A stretch of 64,000 bases of DNA, taken from positions 484,304-548,303 of the forward strand of contig NZ_KB849545.1 of assembly GCF_000368565.1 (NCBI RefSeq), given 5' to 3'. The position numbers and the translations under genes were made by a program. This document shows positions 32,848-37,784 of the stretch, piece after piece. The notes under the pieces were generated by a model. The model did no database searches. It was given only the letters and a program-made list of their open reading frames with translations, and was not told where the DNA came from. Every line of letters begins with the position of its first letter. Position 1 is the first letter of the stretch. The DNA is from Acinetobacter gerneri DSM 14967 = CIP 107464 = MTCC 9824 (GTDB taxonomy: Bacteria; Pseudomonadota; Gammaproteobacteria; Pseudomonadales; Moraxellaceae).

Positions 32848-34158
32848 ATGCTAAAAGCACAACAACTAACATTAGCGGTACTGATCCAAGCCGCACTCGT
32901 TTCAACAGCATTTGCTAGTGAACAAAGCGAATCTAAGGGTTTTGTTGAAGATGCAGAAGGAACTGTATTATTCCGTACGGGTTATTTAACTCGTGATAAA
33001 AAAAATGGGACGCCAGATACAAGCTCTTTTGCTCAAACAGCAATGGTTAACTTAGAGTCTGGCTTTACCCAAGGTCCTGTTGGATTTGGTGTTGGTATTA
33101 TTGGCGACACTTCATTTAAAATCGGAAACAATAAAAATGCTGGTAACGGCATGATTCCTCGCGAGACTCTTAATGGCGTGAAAGGTGCAGGCGATACCTA
33201 TGACACTTGGACTCGCGGTGGCGGAATCGTAAAAGCACGTGTATCAAATACAACTGTACGTTATGGTACTCAAGTTTTAGATATTCCTGTATTTGCAAGT
33301 AACACAGCTCGTTTGGTTCCTGAGTATTTCACAGGTACTTTACTTACTAGCCATGAAATCAAAAATTTAGAAATCATCGGCGGTAAATTCACTAAAGATT
33401 CTTATTCAGATCAAATCAACACTGACGGACGTAATCTTCGTAGTGCTTGGGTTTGGGGTGCTAAATATAAATTTGATGAGAACTTAACTGGGTCTTATTA
33501 TGGTTTAGACATCAAAGATAAACTTGATCGTCACTACCTCAATGCAAACTATAAATTACCTTTAGCAGATAAAAGCTCAGTAACTTTTGACTTAAGTGGT
33601 TACCGTACAGAATTTGATGCAAATGCGAGCACTTATTCTGCGACAGTTCCAGATGGTCAAGATCGTACAAATAATATTTGGGCTTTATCAGGTACTTATA
33701 ATCAAGGTCCACATACTGTGATGTTGGCTTACCAACAAAATACAGGTAATGTTGGTTATGATTATGGTGAGAATGCTGATGGTGCACAAAGTATTTACCT
33801 ACCAAACTCATATCTTTCTGACTTCATCGGTAATCATGAAAAATCAGCTCAAATCCAATATAACCTTGATTTAGGGGCATTTGGTGTACCTGGTTTAAAT
33901 TGGACTACTGCTTTTGTATATGGTTGGGATATTAAAGTTGCTGATTCAAGTGACCGTACAAAACTTATCTCAGACAATGCAACTGAACGTGAATTCTTTA
34001 ACCAAGTAAAATATACAATCCAAAGTGGTTTTGCTAAAGATGTAAGCTTACGTGTACGTAACTCTTATTACCGTGCTAGTGCTGACTATCAAAAACCATA
34101 TATCGGTGACACCAACGAATGGCGTTTATTCCTTGATATTCCTGTAAAATTATTTTAA
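32848..34158 (+). CDS. OprD-family outer-membrane porin
   Basis: A 436-aa porin with a signal peptide (residues 1-23, TAFASEQ) and the OprD-type start of the barrel (GFVEDAEGTVLFRTGYLTRDKKNG). The VRYGTQVLDIPVFASNTARLVPEYFTG region and the C-terminal FLDIPVKLF are also typical. Members take up small carboxylates, amino acids or aromatic compounds, and substrate cannot be read from the sequence. A Shine-Dalgarno (AGAGG) precedes the ATG and a terminator follows. It may work with the neighbouring amino-acid dehydratase, which is inference. Confidence 0.88.
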   Translation: MLKAQQLTLAVLIQAALVSTAFASEQSESKGFVEDAEGTVLFRTGYLTRDKKNGTPDTSSFAQTAMVNLESGFTQGPVGFGVGIIGDTSFKIGNNKNAGNGMIPRETLNGVKGAGDTYDTWTRGGGIVKARVSNTTVRYGTQVLDIPVFASNTARLVPEYFTGTLLTSHEIKNLEIIGGKFTKDSYSDQINTDGRNLRSAWVWGAKYKFDENLTGSYYGLDIKDKLDRHYLNANYKLPLADKSSVTFDLSGYRTEFDANASTYSATVPDGQDRTNNIWALSGTYNQGPHTVMLAYQQNTGNVGYDYGENADGAQSIYLPNSYLSDFIGNHEKSAQIQYNLDLGAFGVPGLNWTTAFVYGWDIKVADSSDRTKLISDNATEREFFNQVKYTIQSGFAKDVSLRVRNSYYRASADYQKPYIGDTNEWRLFLDIPVKLF

Positions 34159-34180
34159 TCACTAAAATAATTTAAACAGT

Positions 34181-34209
34181 AAAAGCCTGCAATTTTGCGG
34201 GCTTTTTTT
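34181..34209 (+). terminator. terminator of the OprD-family gene
   Basis: The stem AAGCCTGC/GCGGGCTT (one wobble) has a loop of about 5 bases and ends in a T-run of seven or more, just after the porin gene. Confidence 0.82.
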
Positions 34210-34306
34210 GTGAGTTATATTTGATATAAGTTCACTTTTAGCAAGTGAAGCTTCATTTTCACGCAATAGCATGATAAATCTTCTTTTTTAATAAAAATTA
34301 TGAAAT

Positions 34307-35227
34307 ATGAGTGCAAATACCCCTTGTATAAGATCAAGCGTTTTAAGTGAATTGAACCATTGTAATATATGGCTAAAAATGGAATCGTGCCAGTCTACTG
34401 GTTCATTTAAACAAAGAAGTATAGGGAATGCTTGTTTGCAATACTCAAAACAAGGGGCGAAAAGATTTATCAGTTCATCAGGGGGGAATGCTGGTATTTC
34501 TGTTGCTTATATGGGGAATGAACTCAATATTCCAGTCACTATCGTTGTTCCTAAAACGACTTCTGCTAAAGCGATACAACTCATGCGTGAAGAAAATGCA
34601 GAGGTTATTGTTCATGGTAATTCATGGGGTGAAGCTAATGATCTAGCTTTAACGTATGTAAGTCCTGAAGCAGTATATATTCACCCGTTCGATGATCCAT
34701 ATCTATGGAATGGTATTGCACCTATTATTGATGAGGTTATCGCTGAGGGTATAAAACCTGATGCCGTTATCTTATCTGTCGGTGGTGGTAGCCTTCTCTC
34801 TGGAATTAGCCAAGGTTTAAAAGCAAATTCACTCACGATCCCGATCTATGCCATTGAAACTGAAGGAACTGCCTCTCTTAATGCTTCTATTAAAATAAGC
34901 AAATATGTCAAATTAGAAGACGTCACAGGCATTGCTACAACACTCGCAGCCAAACAAGTATGTGAAAATGCTTTTAAAATTTCTCAAAATGAAAACATCG
35001 TTGGGTTAACTGTTACAGATGAAGAAGCTCTTCGTGCTTGTTTTCGTTTTTTGGATGACCATAGGACATTGGTTGAACCTGCTTGTGGGGCAACGTTATC
35101 AACACTATATGATAAAAAAATCTCATTTCCCTCTTTAACAAACGTTTTAGTGATTGTTTGTGGAGGAGCATCAATTACTTTAAAACAGTTATTAAAATAT
35201 GCTGAAGGTAATACCCCCCATTTTTAA
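34307..35227 (+). CDS. PLP-dependent L-serine/threonine dehydratase-like protein, C-terminus rewritten by an IS
   Basis: A fold-type II PLP enzyme of 306 aa. The PLP lysine is in CQSTGSFKQRS (about residues 27-37), the substrate loop is SSSGGNAGISVAY, and the PLP-phosphate loop is SVGGGSLLSG. It most resembles serine/threonine ammonia-lyases of the SDH type. The last six codons and the stop (35207-35227) lie inside the inverted repeat of an insertion sequence. Joining the sequence across the element at its GAA duplication restores six different residues (DFKFNI) and a TAG at 36428-36430. The length before insertion was also 306 aa, so activity may be retained. Confidence 0.8.
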   Translation: MSANTPCIRSSVLSELNHCNIWLKMESCQSTGSFKQRSIGNACLQYSKQGAKRFISSSGGNAGISVAYMGNELNIPVTIVVPKTTSAKAIQLMREENAEVIVHGNSWGEANDLALTYVSPEAVYIHPFDDPYLWNGIAPIIDEVIAEGIKPDAVILSVGGGSLLSGISQGLKANSLTIPIYAIETEGTASLNASIKISKYVKLEDVTGIATTLAAKQVCENAFKISQNENIVGLTVTDEEALRACFRFLDDHRTLVEPACGATLSTLYDKKISFPSLTNVLVIVCGGASITLKQLLKYAEGNTPHF

Positions 35228-35259
35228 TTGAATTAATGGGTAGAAAATCTAAAGCCTTG

Positions 35260-36006
35260 TTATTGTTTAAAAATAGGTGGACAACCATTTACTGACATAT
35301 GAGGTCGTTCATGATTATAAAAGTACTGCCAGTCAGTTGTATAGTCCTGCACCTCGCTCAGATCTCGAAATAAATATTGATTTAGACACTCATAACGTAC
35401 TGTACGATTAAATCGCTCAACATATGCATTTTGCTGTGGATTGCCTGGTTGAGTAAATACATGCTCAATACCATGCTGATCACACCACTTTTCCATCAGC
35501 TCACTTATATACTCTGGGCCATTGTCGGTTCTAATGCGTTTAGGTTTACCTCGCCATTCAATGAGCTGATCAAGTCCTCTCAGCACACGTTCTGCTGGCA
35601 ACGAAAAGTCAATCAATATATCCAATGACTCGCGATTATAGTCATCAATCACGTTGTGAACTCGATAACTACGTCCATCACTGAGTTGATCATACATAAA
35701 GTCCATTGACCATGATTCATTCTTAGCTGTCGGTACTGCAAGGGTTTCAGGCTGTTCTCGTTTAATCCGCTTATTAGGCTTGATTCTTAAATTAAGCTCA
35801 AGCTCCTTATAAATGCGATAGACACGTTTGTGGTTCCATTTGTATTTTTTAACATTACGCAAATACAGGAAACAAAGCTTGAAGCCCCATGTTTTATGAT
35901 CATTGGTTAATTGAATCAACCATTCGGCAATCTGTTGATTCTCTTCATCTAAACGAGCTTTATAGCGATAACACGTTTGACTGACTTTAAAAATTAAGCA
36001 GGCCAT
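35260..36006 (-). CDS. IS3-family transposase OrfB (DDE domain)
   Basis: The catalytic half of the transposase. The rve/DDE triad is visible: Asp in WSMDFMYDQL, Asp in IRTDNGPEYIS, and Glu in NAYVERFNRT. The N-terminal part has the HTH_21-type region (LTNDHKTWGFKLCFLYLRN, then KRVYRIYKELELNLR). The functional product is expected to be an OrfAB fusion made by -1 frameshifting; in that frame the reading continues upstream of the local ATG to about 36080 without a stop. It looks intact. Confidence 0.92.
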   Translation of the reverse strand: MACLIFKVSQTCYRYKARLDEENQQIAEWLIQLTNDHKTWGFKLCFLYLRNVKKYKWNHKRVYRIYKELELNLRIKPNKRIKREQPETLAVPTAKNESWSMDFMYDQLSDGRSYRVHNVIDDYNRESLDILIDFSLPAERVLRGLDQLIEWRGKPKRIRTDNGPEYISELMEKWCDQHGIEHVFTQPGNPQQNAYVERFNRTVRYECLNQYLFRDLSEVQDYTTDWQYFYNHERPHMSVNGCPPIFKQ

Positions 36007-36068
36007 GCTGATTGAAATCTTAAATTGCTCAGTAGCTTGCTGAGCAAGTAACTTTCGCTGAACAGGCC

Positions 36069-36335
36069 TTAAAACTTTTTTAAAAGTGCATCTTGCAAGA
36101 TGTCTGACTTTAGCCGCTCATCAGCATACATGCGTTTTAAACGGGCATTTTCAGCCTCAAGTTCTTTAAGCCGCGTCATCATTGAAAGATCCATGCCGCC
36201 ATATTTGGACTTCCACTTGTAGAATGTAGCAGAGCTCATACCATGTTCGCGGCACAAGTTCGGTATGGGTGTTCCTGCTTCAGCTTGCTTCAAGATACTC
36301 ATGATCAAGCTGTCTGAATACTTAGATGTTTTCAT
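36069..36335 (-). CDS. IS3-family transposase OrfA (HTH)
   Basis: An 88-aa DNA-binding half with a helix-turn-helix (IPNLCREHGMSSATFYKWKSKYGG) and a leucine-zipper-like C-terminus (LKELEAENARLKRMY). The gene ends just after a slippery A6G heptamer (36075-36081 on the minus strand). A slip of -1 there joins it to OrfB through VLRPVQRKLLAQQATEQF, a typical IS3 arrangement. Confidence 0.92.
   Translation of the reverse strand: MKTSKYSDSLIMSILKQAEAGTPIPNLCREHGMSSATFYKWKSKYGGMDLSMMTRLKELEAENARLKRMYADERLKSDILQDALLKKF
36075..36081 (-). promoter_or_regulatory. programmed -1 frameshift site of the IS transposase
   Basis: The heptamer AAAAAAG (minus strand) lies two codons before the orfA stop. Slippage opens the frame directly into orfB, as in other IS3 members. 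Confidence 0.75.
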
Positions 36336-36574
36336 AGAAAATCTCCTTAAATCAAGGTTATTCGATTTTCTACTTTTAAACTCAATTATTTTTAGGGAGG
36401 ATTACCGAAGATTTTAAATTTAACATATAGTTTTCAGGGAAAATTAACAATTTTTGTCAGCAGTAGACAGGCCAAACCACTGATAGTCGATTAACTCCAT
36501 GATTCATTTTTCCGACTCCTAGATTGACAAAGAATCACTTAAACCCAGTTTATGGATACATCACAAGTCTAGCA

Positions 36575-37078
36575 TCAAACTTCTTGGATAATATCCAATA
36601 ATATCGGCTGTACGATTTGCAAATAATCTTTTGATTTCATTTTAATTGATTTGCTCAAACTGCCTGCATTAAAAGCAATTTCATCAAAACGATTAAAAAT
36701 ATCATGATCAGCAATCACCGTTAATGCATCATGAAAACTAAATGGCGGTACTGAGCCCGGAACACATGCCGTCAACTCAAAAGCTGTTTCCACGCTTGCC
36801 ATTGAAACACGTTTCACTTGTATGGCTTCTGCTAGTTTTTTAAAGTCAACTTTGCGATCACCTGCACTAATCACCAAAAGATATTGGTACTTACTTTGCC
36901 CACGAATCTGACAAACCAAAGCTTTCGCACCCTGCCCTACTTCTGTACCTCGAATTTTGGCGACTTCTTCACTTTTTCCTTCTGATGCATGTTCAATGAC
37001 TTGATATTGGACATGCTTTGAATCGAGTAAACTTGAAATTTGCTCAAAAGGCGACTGGTTTAGGGATGCTTCAGTCAT
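36575..37078 (-). CDS. YbaK/EbsC-family aminoacyl-tRNA deacylase-like protein
   Basis: A cytosolic protein of 167 aa with the YbaK/ProX editing-domain fold. Its order of blocks is HASEGKSEEVAKIRGTEVGQGAKALVCQ, LLVISAGDRKVDFKKLA and TACVPGSVPPFSF. The family removes mischarged amino acids from tRNA in trans; the conserved Lys and GxxPPF-type loop are visible, but the amino acid specificity is not. ATG at 37078 follows GGAAGAA; five extra upstream codons from a TTG are unlikely to be used. It is the first gene beyond the IS. Confidence 0.82.
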   Translation of the reverse strand: MTEASLNQSPFEQISSLLDSKHVQYQVIEHASEGKSEEVAKIRGTEVGQGAKALVCQIRGQSKYQYLLVISAGDRKVDFKKLAEAIQVKRVSMASVETAFELTACVPGSVPPFSFHDALTVIADHDIFNRFDEIAFNAGSLSKSIKMKSKDYLQIVQPILLDIIQEV

Positions 37079-37206
37079 GTTATTCTTCCTCAATTTTATT
37101 CTTTAAAATACGACTAACACATTAAAGTCATCGCGTTAAACTTTTGTGATAAATATAATATATCTAATGGATTTGAGCGATTAAGATCAAACCTACACTG
37201 ATATAA

Positions 37207-37236
37207 AAAAACCTGCATATTGATGCAGGTTTTTGA
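37207..37236 (-). terminator. terminator of ppa
   Basis: The stem AAAACCTGCAT/ATGCAGGTTTT lies 25 bp after the ppa stop on the minus strand. It may also act in the other direction. Confidence 0.82.
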
Positions 37237-37259
37237 TTTAGAAAATAAATTCTAAATGA

Positions 37260-37784
37260 TTATTTAGCAGCTTCGATTGCTTTAAGTACTTCTGCTTTAG
37301 CAACATCAGCACCTTCCCAACCAGTCAACTTAACCCATTTTCCAGGTTCTAAATCTTTGTAATGTGCAAAGAAATGTTCGATTTGGTTGATCAATAATTC
37401 AGGAAGATCTGTATATTCTTGAACATCTTTATAAAGTGGAGTCAATTTTTCGTGTGGAACTGCTACAAGTTTAGCATCGATACCACCGTCATCTTCCATG
37501 TTCAATTTACCAACAGGACGACAACGAATCACTGAACCATGTACCAATGGGTAAGGTGTAACAACCAATACGTCTAATGGGTCACCATCTTCAGATAAAG
37601 TATTTGGTACATAACCATAGTTCGCAGGATAGAACATTGCTGTAGCCATGAAACGGTCTACAAACAAAGCATCAGAATCTTTATCTACTTCGTATTTGAT
37701 TGGTGATGCGTTTGCAGGAATTTCGATAACAACATAGATATCGTTAGGTGCATCTTTACCCGCTGGGATATTACTGTAGCTCAT
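37260..37784 (-). CDS. ppa: inorganic pyrophosphatase
   Basis: This soluble family I pyrophosphatase of 174 aa hydrolyses PPi released by biosynthesis. Conserved blocks are [45 protein letters not shown] and the signature-like Asp cluster [10 protein letters not shown], with downstream KLTPLYKDV. The start at 37784 is the family start. It is monocistronic, with its own terminator. Confidence 0.96.

Follow-up and report, generated by a model that had tools for sequence, protein, structure and literature searches.

The window analysed here, a 64,000-nucleotide stretch of the Acinetobacter gerneri genome (4.59 Mb in 42 contigs), carries a serine/threonine-dehydratase-like gene whose reading frame enters an insertion sequence (IS) and ends there (Table 1). 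The open reading frame (34307-35227, plus strand) encodes a product of 306 amino acids that terminates ...LLKYAE-GNTPHF-TAA. A Pfam domain search matched residues 4-286 to the PALP domain (PF00291; E = 4.8e-66), and among proteins of solved structure L-serine dehydratases are the nearest by sequence (4h27, E = 1e-64, with an alignment reaching residue 297). The curated NCBIfam cut-off was reached for none of the best 25 of 39 matched models, and naming therefore stops at "serine/threonine-dehydratase-like": PALP and the solved L-serine dehydratases indicate the enzyme class, and deamination of L-serine or L-threonine is a putative activity.

The dehydratase gene lies between an OprD-type porin gene (32848-34158) and an inorganic pyrophosphatase gene (37260-37784), matches to which are no more than about 130 bp apart in all 18 other same-genus genomes among the 29 genomes examined; in one of these loci (L084) the two open reading frames are separated by 90 bp. 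The corresponding interval in the source genome is 3.1 kb long (34159-37259) and consists of the dehydratase gene, the IS, and a third gene whose product has an aminoacyl-tRNA editing domain; matches to this third gene reach an E value of 1e-20 in 3 of 175 genus genomes, the source included. Since porin and pyrophosphatase are adjacent in relatives and 3.1 kb apart here, the dehydratase gene is placed in an accessory block, a location that would fit a gene under weak constraint.

Table 1. Features at the dehydratase-IS junction, in window coordinates.
Feature	Coordinates	Strand	Evidence
Serine/threonine-dehydratase-like gene (PLP-dependent)	34307..35227	+	ORF of 306 aa in its present form, with codons 1-300 belonging to the host
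Target duplication, left copy GAA (or GAAG, 35204-35207)	35204..35206		sequence
IS-encoded cap, GNTPHF and TAA	35207..35227	+	reading of IS left end
ISAba20-family IS3 element, 1200 bp	35207..36406 (or 35208-36406 with the first G counted as target)	- (transposase strand)	copies in genome, profile match, plasmid matches
orfB of IS, rve integrase core	35260..36006	-	ORF, Pfam, NCBIfam
orfA of IS, 88 aa, HTH_Tnp_1, A6G slippery run at its end	36069..36335	-	ORF, Pfam
Target duplication, right copy GAA (or GAAG, 36407-36410)	36407..36409		sequence
Displaced original dehydratase end, DFKFNI and TAG (stop 36428-36430)	36410..36430	+	sequence; likeness to orthologue tails
Gene with aminoacyl-tRNA editing domain	36575-37093		domain search

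The element itself has the organisation predicted for the IS3 family, namely overlapping orfA and orfB with an HTH and a DDE integrase core, respectively, and a putative A6G frameshift site, back to which the orfB frame is open over 273 codons. The NCBIfam transpos_IS3 model was matched above its cut-off by orfB and below it by orfA alone. The two ends of the element are imperfect inverted repeats, GGTAATACCCCCCATTTTTAATTGA and, on the opposite strand, GGTAATCCTCCCTAAAAATAATTGA. Six plasmid records annotated as ISAba20 family share 99.3-99.8% identity with it over 96-100% of its length. In the source genome, full copies of two lengths occur (three of 1200 bp and three of 1199 bp), together with one copy that is interrupted and one that is partial. 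The presence of several near-identical copies in a single genome identifies the IS in the window as a real mobile element. In the interrupted copy (L007 428-2675, corresponding to G000:C40:105672-107919), 34 bp of the left end lie approximately 1 kb from the remainder of the IS.

The junction can be read to the nucleotide. Codon 300 of the dehydratase gene is GAA (35204-35206) and codon 301 is GGT (35207-35209), and from there the left end of the IS continues in the dehydratase frame as GGT AAT ACC CCC CAT TTT TAA, encoding GNTPHF and a stop. Beyond the right end, GAA recurs and is followed in frame by GAT TTT AAA TTT AAC ATA TAG, that is, DFKFNI and a stop. The original prediction, made from this DNA without database searches, had the IS beginning at 35207 in frame with codon 301, its terminal repeat supplying GNTPHF with the stop, and DFKFNI with TAG at 36428-36430 lying past the right end; the sequence and its translation bear out each of these particulars, and the insertion, its frame, the stop, and the duplication are a confirmed event.

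Close matches to the dehydratase occur in 24 of 175 genus genomes, the source included (all at E = 2.3e-100 or lower, with the following match at 1.1e-29). C-termini were compared across the 23 other genus genomes and 11 named loci, nine of which repeat those genomes, giving 25 distinct homologues that include Comamonas and Pseudomonas. It had been expected that orthologues free of the IS would end in a sequence close to YAEDFKFNI. The nearest orthologue (L021, 77%) ends KYSNDLALEI, in register with the rebuilt KYAEDFKFNI, so that homology at the rebuilt junction is present, and both proteins have 306 residues when counted from the residue aligned with Met1; the exact ending DFKFNI, however, was seen in none of the 25 distinct homologues. 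Past the equivalent of codon 300, other orthologues continue with DLSLNQ (L027), DLSIVL (L029), or DLSFNPKKSL (L036). Scored with BLOSUM62 against the 11 orthologue tails of at least five residues, DFKFNI totals +65, which is matched or beaten by 0.20% of 20,000 random hexapeptides drawn from the six frames of the window, whereas the IS-derived GNTPHF totals -97, a score reached by 82% of them; these percentages do not represent independent tests, as the orthologue rows are kin to each other. Adding five 4-residue tails (16 in all) gives +76 (0.49%) for DFKFNI and -132 (85%) for GNTPHF, and the scoring left out 7 of the 23 orthologues (L037-L043), which have no residue or one residue there or end earlier. 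From these comparisons we infer that DFKFNI was the exact original tail. A tblastn search with the dehydratase and five neighbours (threshold 1e-8) found no window neighbour at the 34 dehydratase loci, and synteny speaks neither for nor against the reconstruction because the gene sits elsewhere in relatives.

A different origin of the displaced tail was considered because three relatives (L081, L082, and L083) carry a 28-bp near match to 36407-36434, with 22 bp exact in L083. It was rejected as a chance coincidence of AT-rich sequence: the match falls at the start of an unrelated gene, in the opposite sense, and the similarity ends there. The source genome has no further copy of the 28-bp stretch at up to three mismatches, and contains a homologue (70% over 60 aa) of the gene concerned, which we take to be ZapE-like.

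The extent of the target duplication allows two readings. The GAA duplication proposed in the original prediction is present on both sides of the IS, but may instead be GAAG, with the IS starting at 35208, and the two readings yield an identical empty site. The window copy is accordingly either 1200 bp long with GAA or 1199 bp long with GAAG; published ISAba20, in the available excerpts of its description, is 1199 bp long and generated a 4-bp duplication (CTTA) in araC1 (PMC3882262). The window copy belongs to a left-end variant with a run of six Cs (window 35207-35230), found as an exact pattern at four places (L001, L002, L003, and L007) in 1 of 175 genomes, the source genome alone, while the five-C left end occurs as an exact pattern at 24 places in 12 genomes, the source included; both counts miss copies with other changes inside the pattern. 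Thirteen distinct flank pairs of the five-C form have both ends visible, nine with a 4-bp duplication and four with none; the left flank of two of the latter is also that of the araC site. The duplications at two six-C copies are GAA and, at L003, CCA; with the first G assigned to the host, they would read GAAG and CCAG. That a G precedes GTAAT at all four six-C ends argues for its belonging to the IS; that the element habitually duplicates 4 bp argues for its being host DNA. It is possible, if rather doubtful, that the extra C in the left repeat moves the transposase cut by one base, such that GTAAT (35208) would form the end of the element, the 4-bp duplication would be kept, and the first G would belong to the host. 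If true, this natural variant would serve as a test that the cut is measured by the transposase from a site inside the element rather than from its tip.

The statement that the original and the rewritten protein are both 306 aa long holds, but the equality is a coincidence that depends on the extra C of the six-C variant: the same frame in the five-C form reads GNTPIFN, seven residues, and the product would be 307 aa long. Depending on host phase, the window IS supplies tails of 6, 1, or 8 residues from its left end and 4, 1, or 8 from its right end. Among random oriented insertions, about 0.3% would leave the protein length exactly unchanged, the figure being about 2% for seven copies (assuming approximately 4300 genes, a number that was not counted), and equal length is therefore treated as carrying no signal.

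The consequences for the enzyme are likely to be slight. A predicted structure of the GNTPHF form, built with 11 homologues, has a mean pLDDT of 79 and a pTM of 0.81; its last predicted helix spans residues 292-301, and residues 303-306 fall under a pLDDT of 50. Residues 302-306 lie past both the Pfam domain and this helix, and orthologue tails past codon 300 vary from 0 to 10 residues in length. Loss of function is unlikely because the changed residues are beyond domain and helix and orthologue tails vary, and the structural model suggests that the GNTPHF form most likely folds and works as before. The replaced tail is probably the least constrained part of the enzyme, and its replacement probably brought little biological change. 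The end of the transcript would have to change, with dehydratase transcription expected to run antisense into the transposase gene. A terminator scan of 34100-36700 found no plus-strand site and two minus-strand sites, no more than in shuffled sequence.

The locus is best explained by transposition of a 1.2-kb ISAba20-family (IS3) element between codons 300 and 301 of an accessory dehydratase-like gene, with duplication of 3 or 4 bp of the target. In the frame that enters it, the left end of the IS offers six codons and then a stop, so that translation joins GNTPHF to residues 1-300 in place of DFKFNI. This explanation as a whole, in which the insertion is recent and nearly neutral and does not amount to a functional rewrite, is very probably correct; activity would have been retained, and the neutrality and recency of the event are likewise a matter of interpretation. 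Alternatively, the dehydratase may have been inactivated or destabilised because the insertion cost it the last six residues or the normal transcript end, which would make the gene in effect a pseudogene. The position of the IS within a coding sequence agrees with such an outcome, as does the displacement of the normal 3' transcript end by 1.2 kb, with its presumed antisense run. Inactivation is nevertheless unlikely, given that the changed residues lie past the Pfam domain and, save residue 301, past the last predicted helix, that the tail is missing or different in orthologues, and that codons 1-300 are read without a stop or frame break.

Another proposal is that the gene natively ends in GNTPHF and that 36410-36430 resembles a gene end by chance. 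This proposal can claim that no IS-free allele was found in the homologue search of 175 genus genomes and the named loci, and that three relatives carry the 28-bp near match to 36407-36434 at a gene unrelated to the dehydratase. It is almost certainly wrong: the IS end coding for GNTPHF recurs at four places in the source genome, a GNTPHF ending (whose occurrence in orthologues had been named as grounds for abandoning the original prediction) is present in 0 of 25 distinct homologues, the duplication flanks the IS on both sides, and DFKFNI fits the orthologue tails. A further proposal, that selection has shaped the IS end for clean capping of host genes, with early stops in every frame and a soft landing near gene ends, draws on the observation that the three inward frames of the window copy close within 25 bp at either end, compared with 2.1% of random window positions doing so within 26 bp. 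The two ends, however, are inverted repeats and hence do not vary independently, and an AT-rich repeat that transposase must bind is expected to contain stops. Furthermore, several copies of the commoner five-C form have one left-end frame that stays open for 21-29 residues before a stop, so tight frame closure is not a fixed trait, and selection of this kind is highly unlikely. An ordinary, nearly neutral insertion is thus retained as the preferred reading.

The left end of ISAba20 is known to have ended another host frame. An AraC-type gene on Acinetobacter plasmids is capped by it to give a 156-aa product ending GNTPIFN, and the disruption of araC1 by ISAba20 near blaOXA-58 has already been published, as excerpts of that report state (PMC3882262). 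The IS and its left end are the same in the two cases, and in both the host frame enters the IS and stops. The araC1 insertion differs in that the regulator loses its second half and probably its function, whereas six tail residues are changed in the dehydratase, and in that it involves the 1199-bp five-C form with a 4-bp duplication rather than the six-C copy of the window (PMC3882262). The capped AraC product is recorded in RefSeq as WP_020753607.1, "AraC family ligand binding domain-containing protein," in 5 of 25 matched plasmid records. The expectation that annotation pipelines would call the dehydratase gene intact and miss the event is thereby supported by analogy only. Among 29 distinct ISAba20 left-end flanks, surveyed at exact-pattern ends only and covering 7 of the 25 plasmid records, a host frame of 60 or more codons enters the IS in seven; apart from that of the window, these frames comprise the AraC frame and a ParE-like frame above the Pfam cut-off, one frame below it, and three without a match. 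The ParE-like frame (PF05016, E = 2.3e-11; L113 1238-1501) stops after one IS-supplied residue.

Searches of open-licence papers, seven of which mention ISAba20, brought up no account of the dehydratase insertion, nor of ISAba20 replacing a C-terminus at equal length. Comparable events with other elements are described. MITEAba12 likewise gives an Acinetobacter host gene its last codons and stop, in fusions with up to 19 element-encoded residues, but, according to the available text, it is a miniature inverted-repeat element, and in the case of ACX60_04650 it shortens the protein by 398 aa (PMC6382973). RU-1 repeats at the 3' ends of enterobacterial genes similarly rewrite the C-terminus past a conserved domain, as in the amidase ECA3499; unlike ISAba20, RU-1 is a small repeat rather than an IS, and it lengthens ECA3499 by about 35 residues, as far as the excerpted account describes (PMC2759123). 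The capping of the dehydratase is an ordinary insertion and a further case of this already known type of event, providing a clean example of an intact-looking gene with a mobile-element end and serving as a reminder that such hybrids can receive ordinary protein names from automatic annotation.
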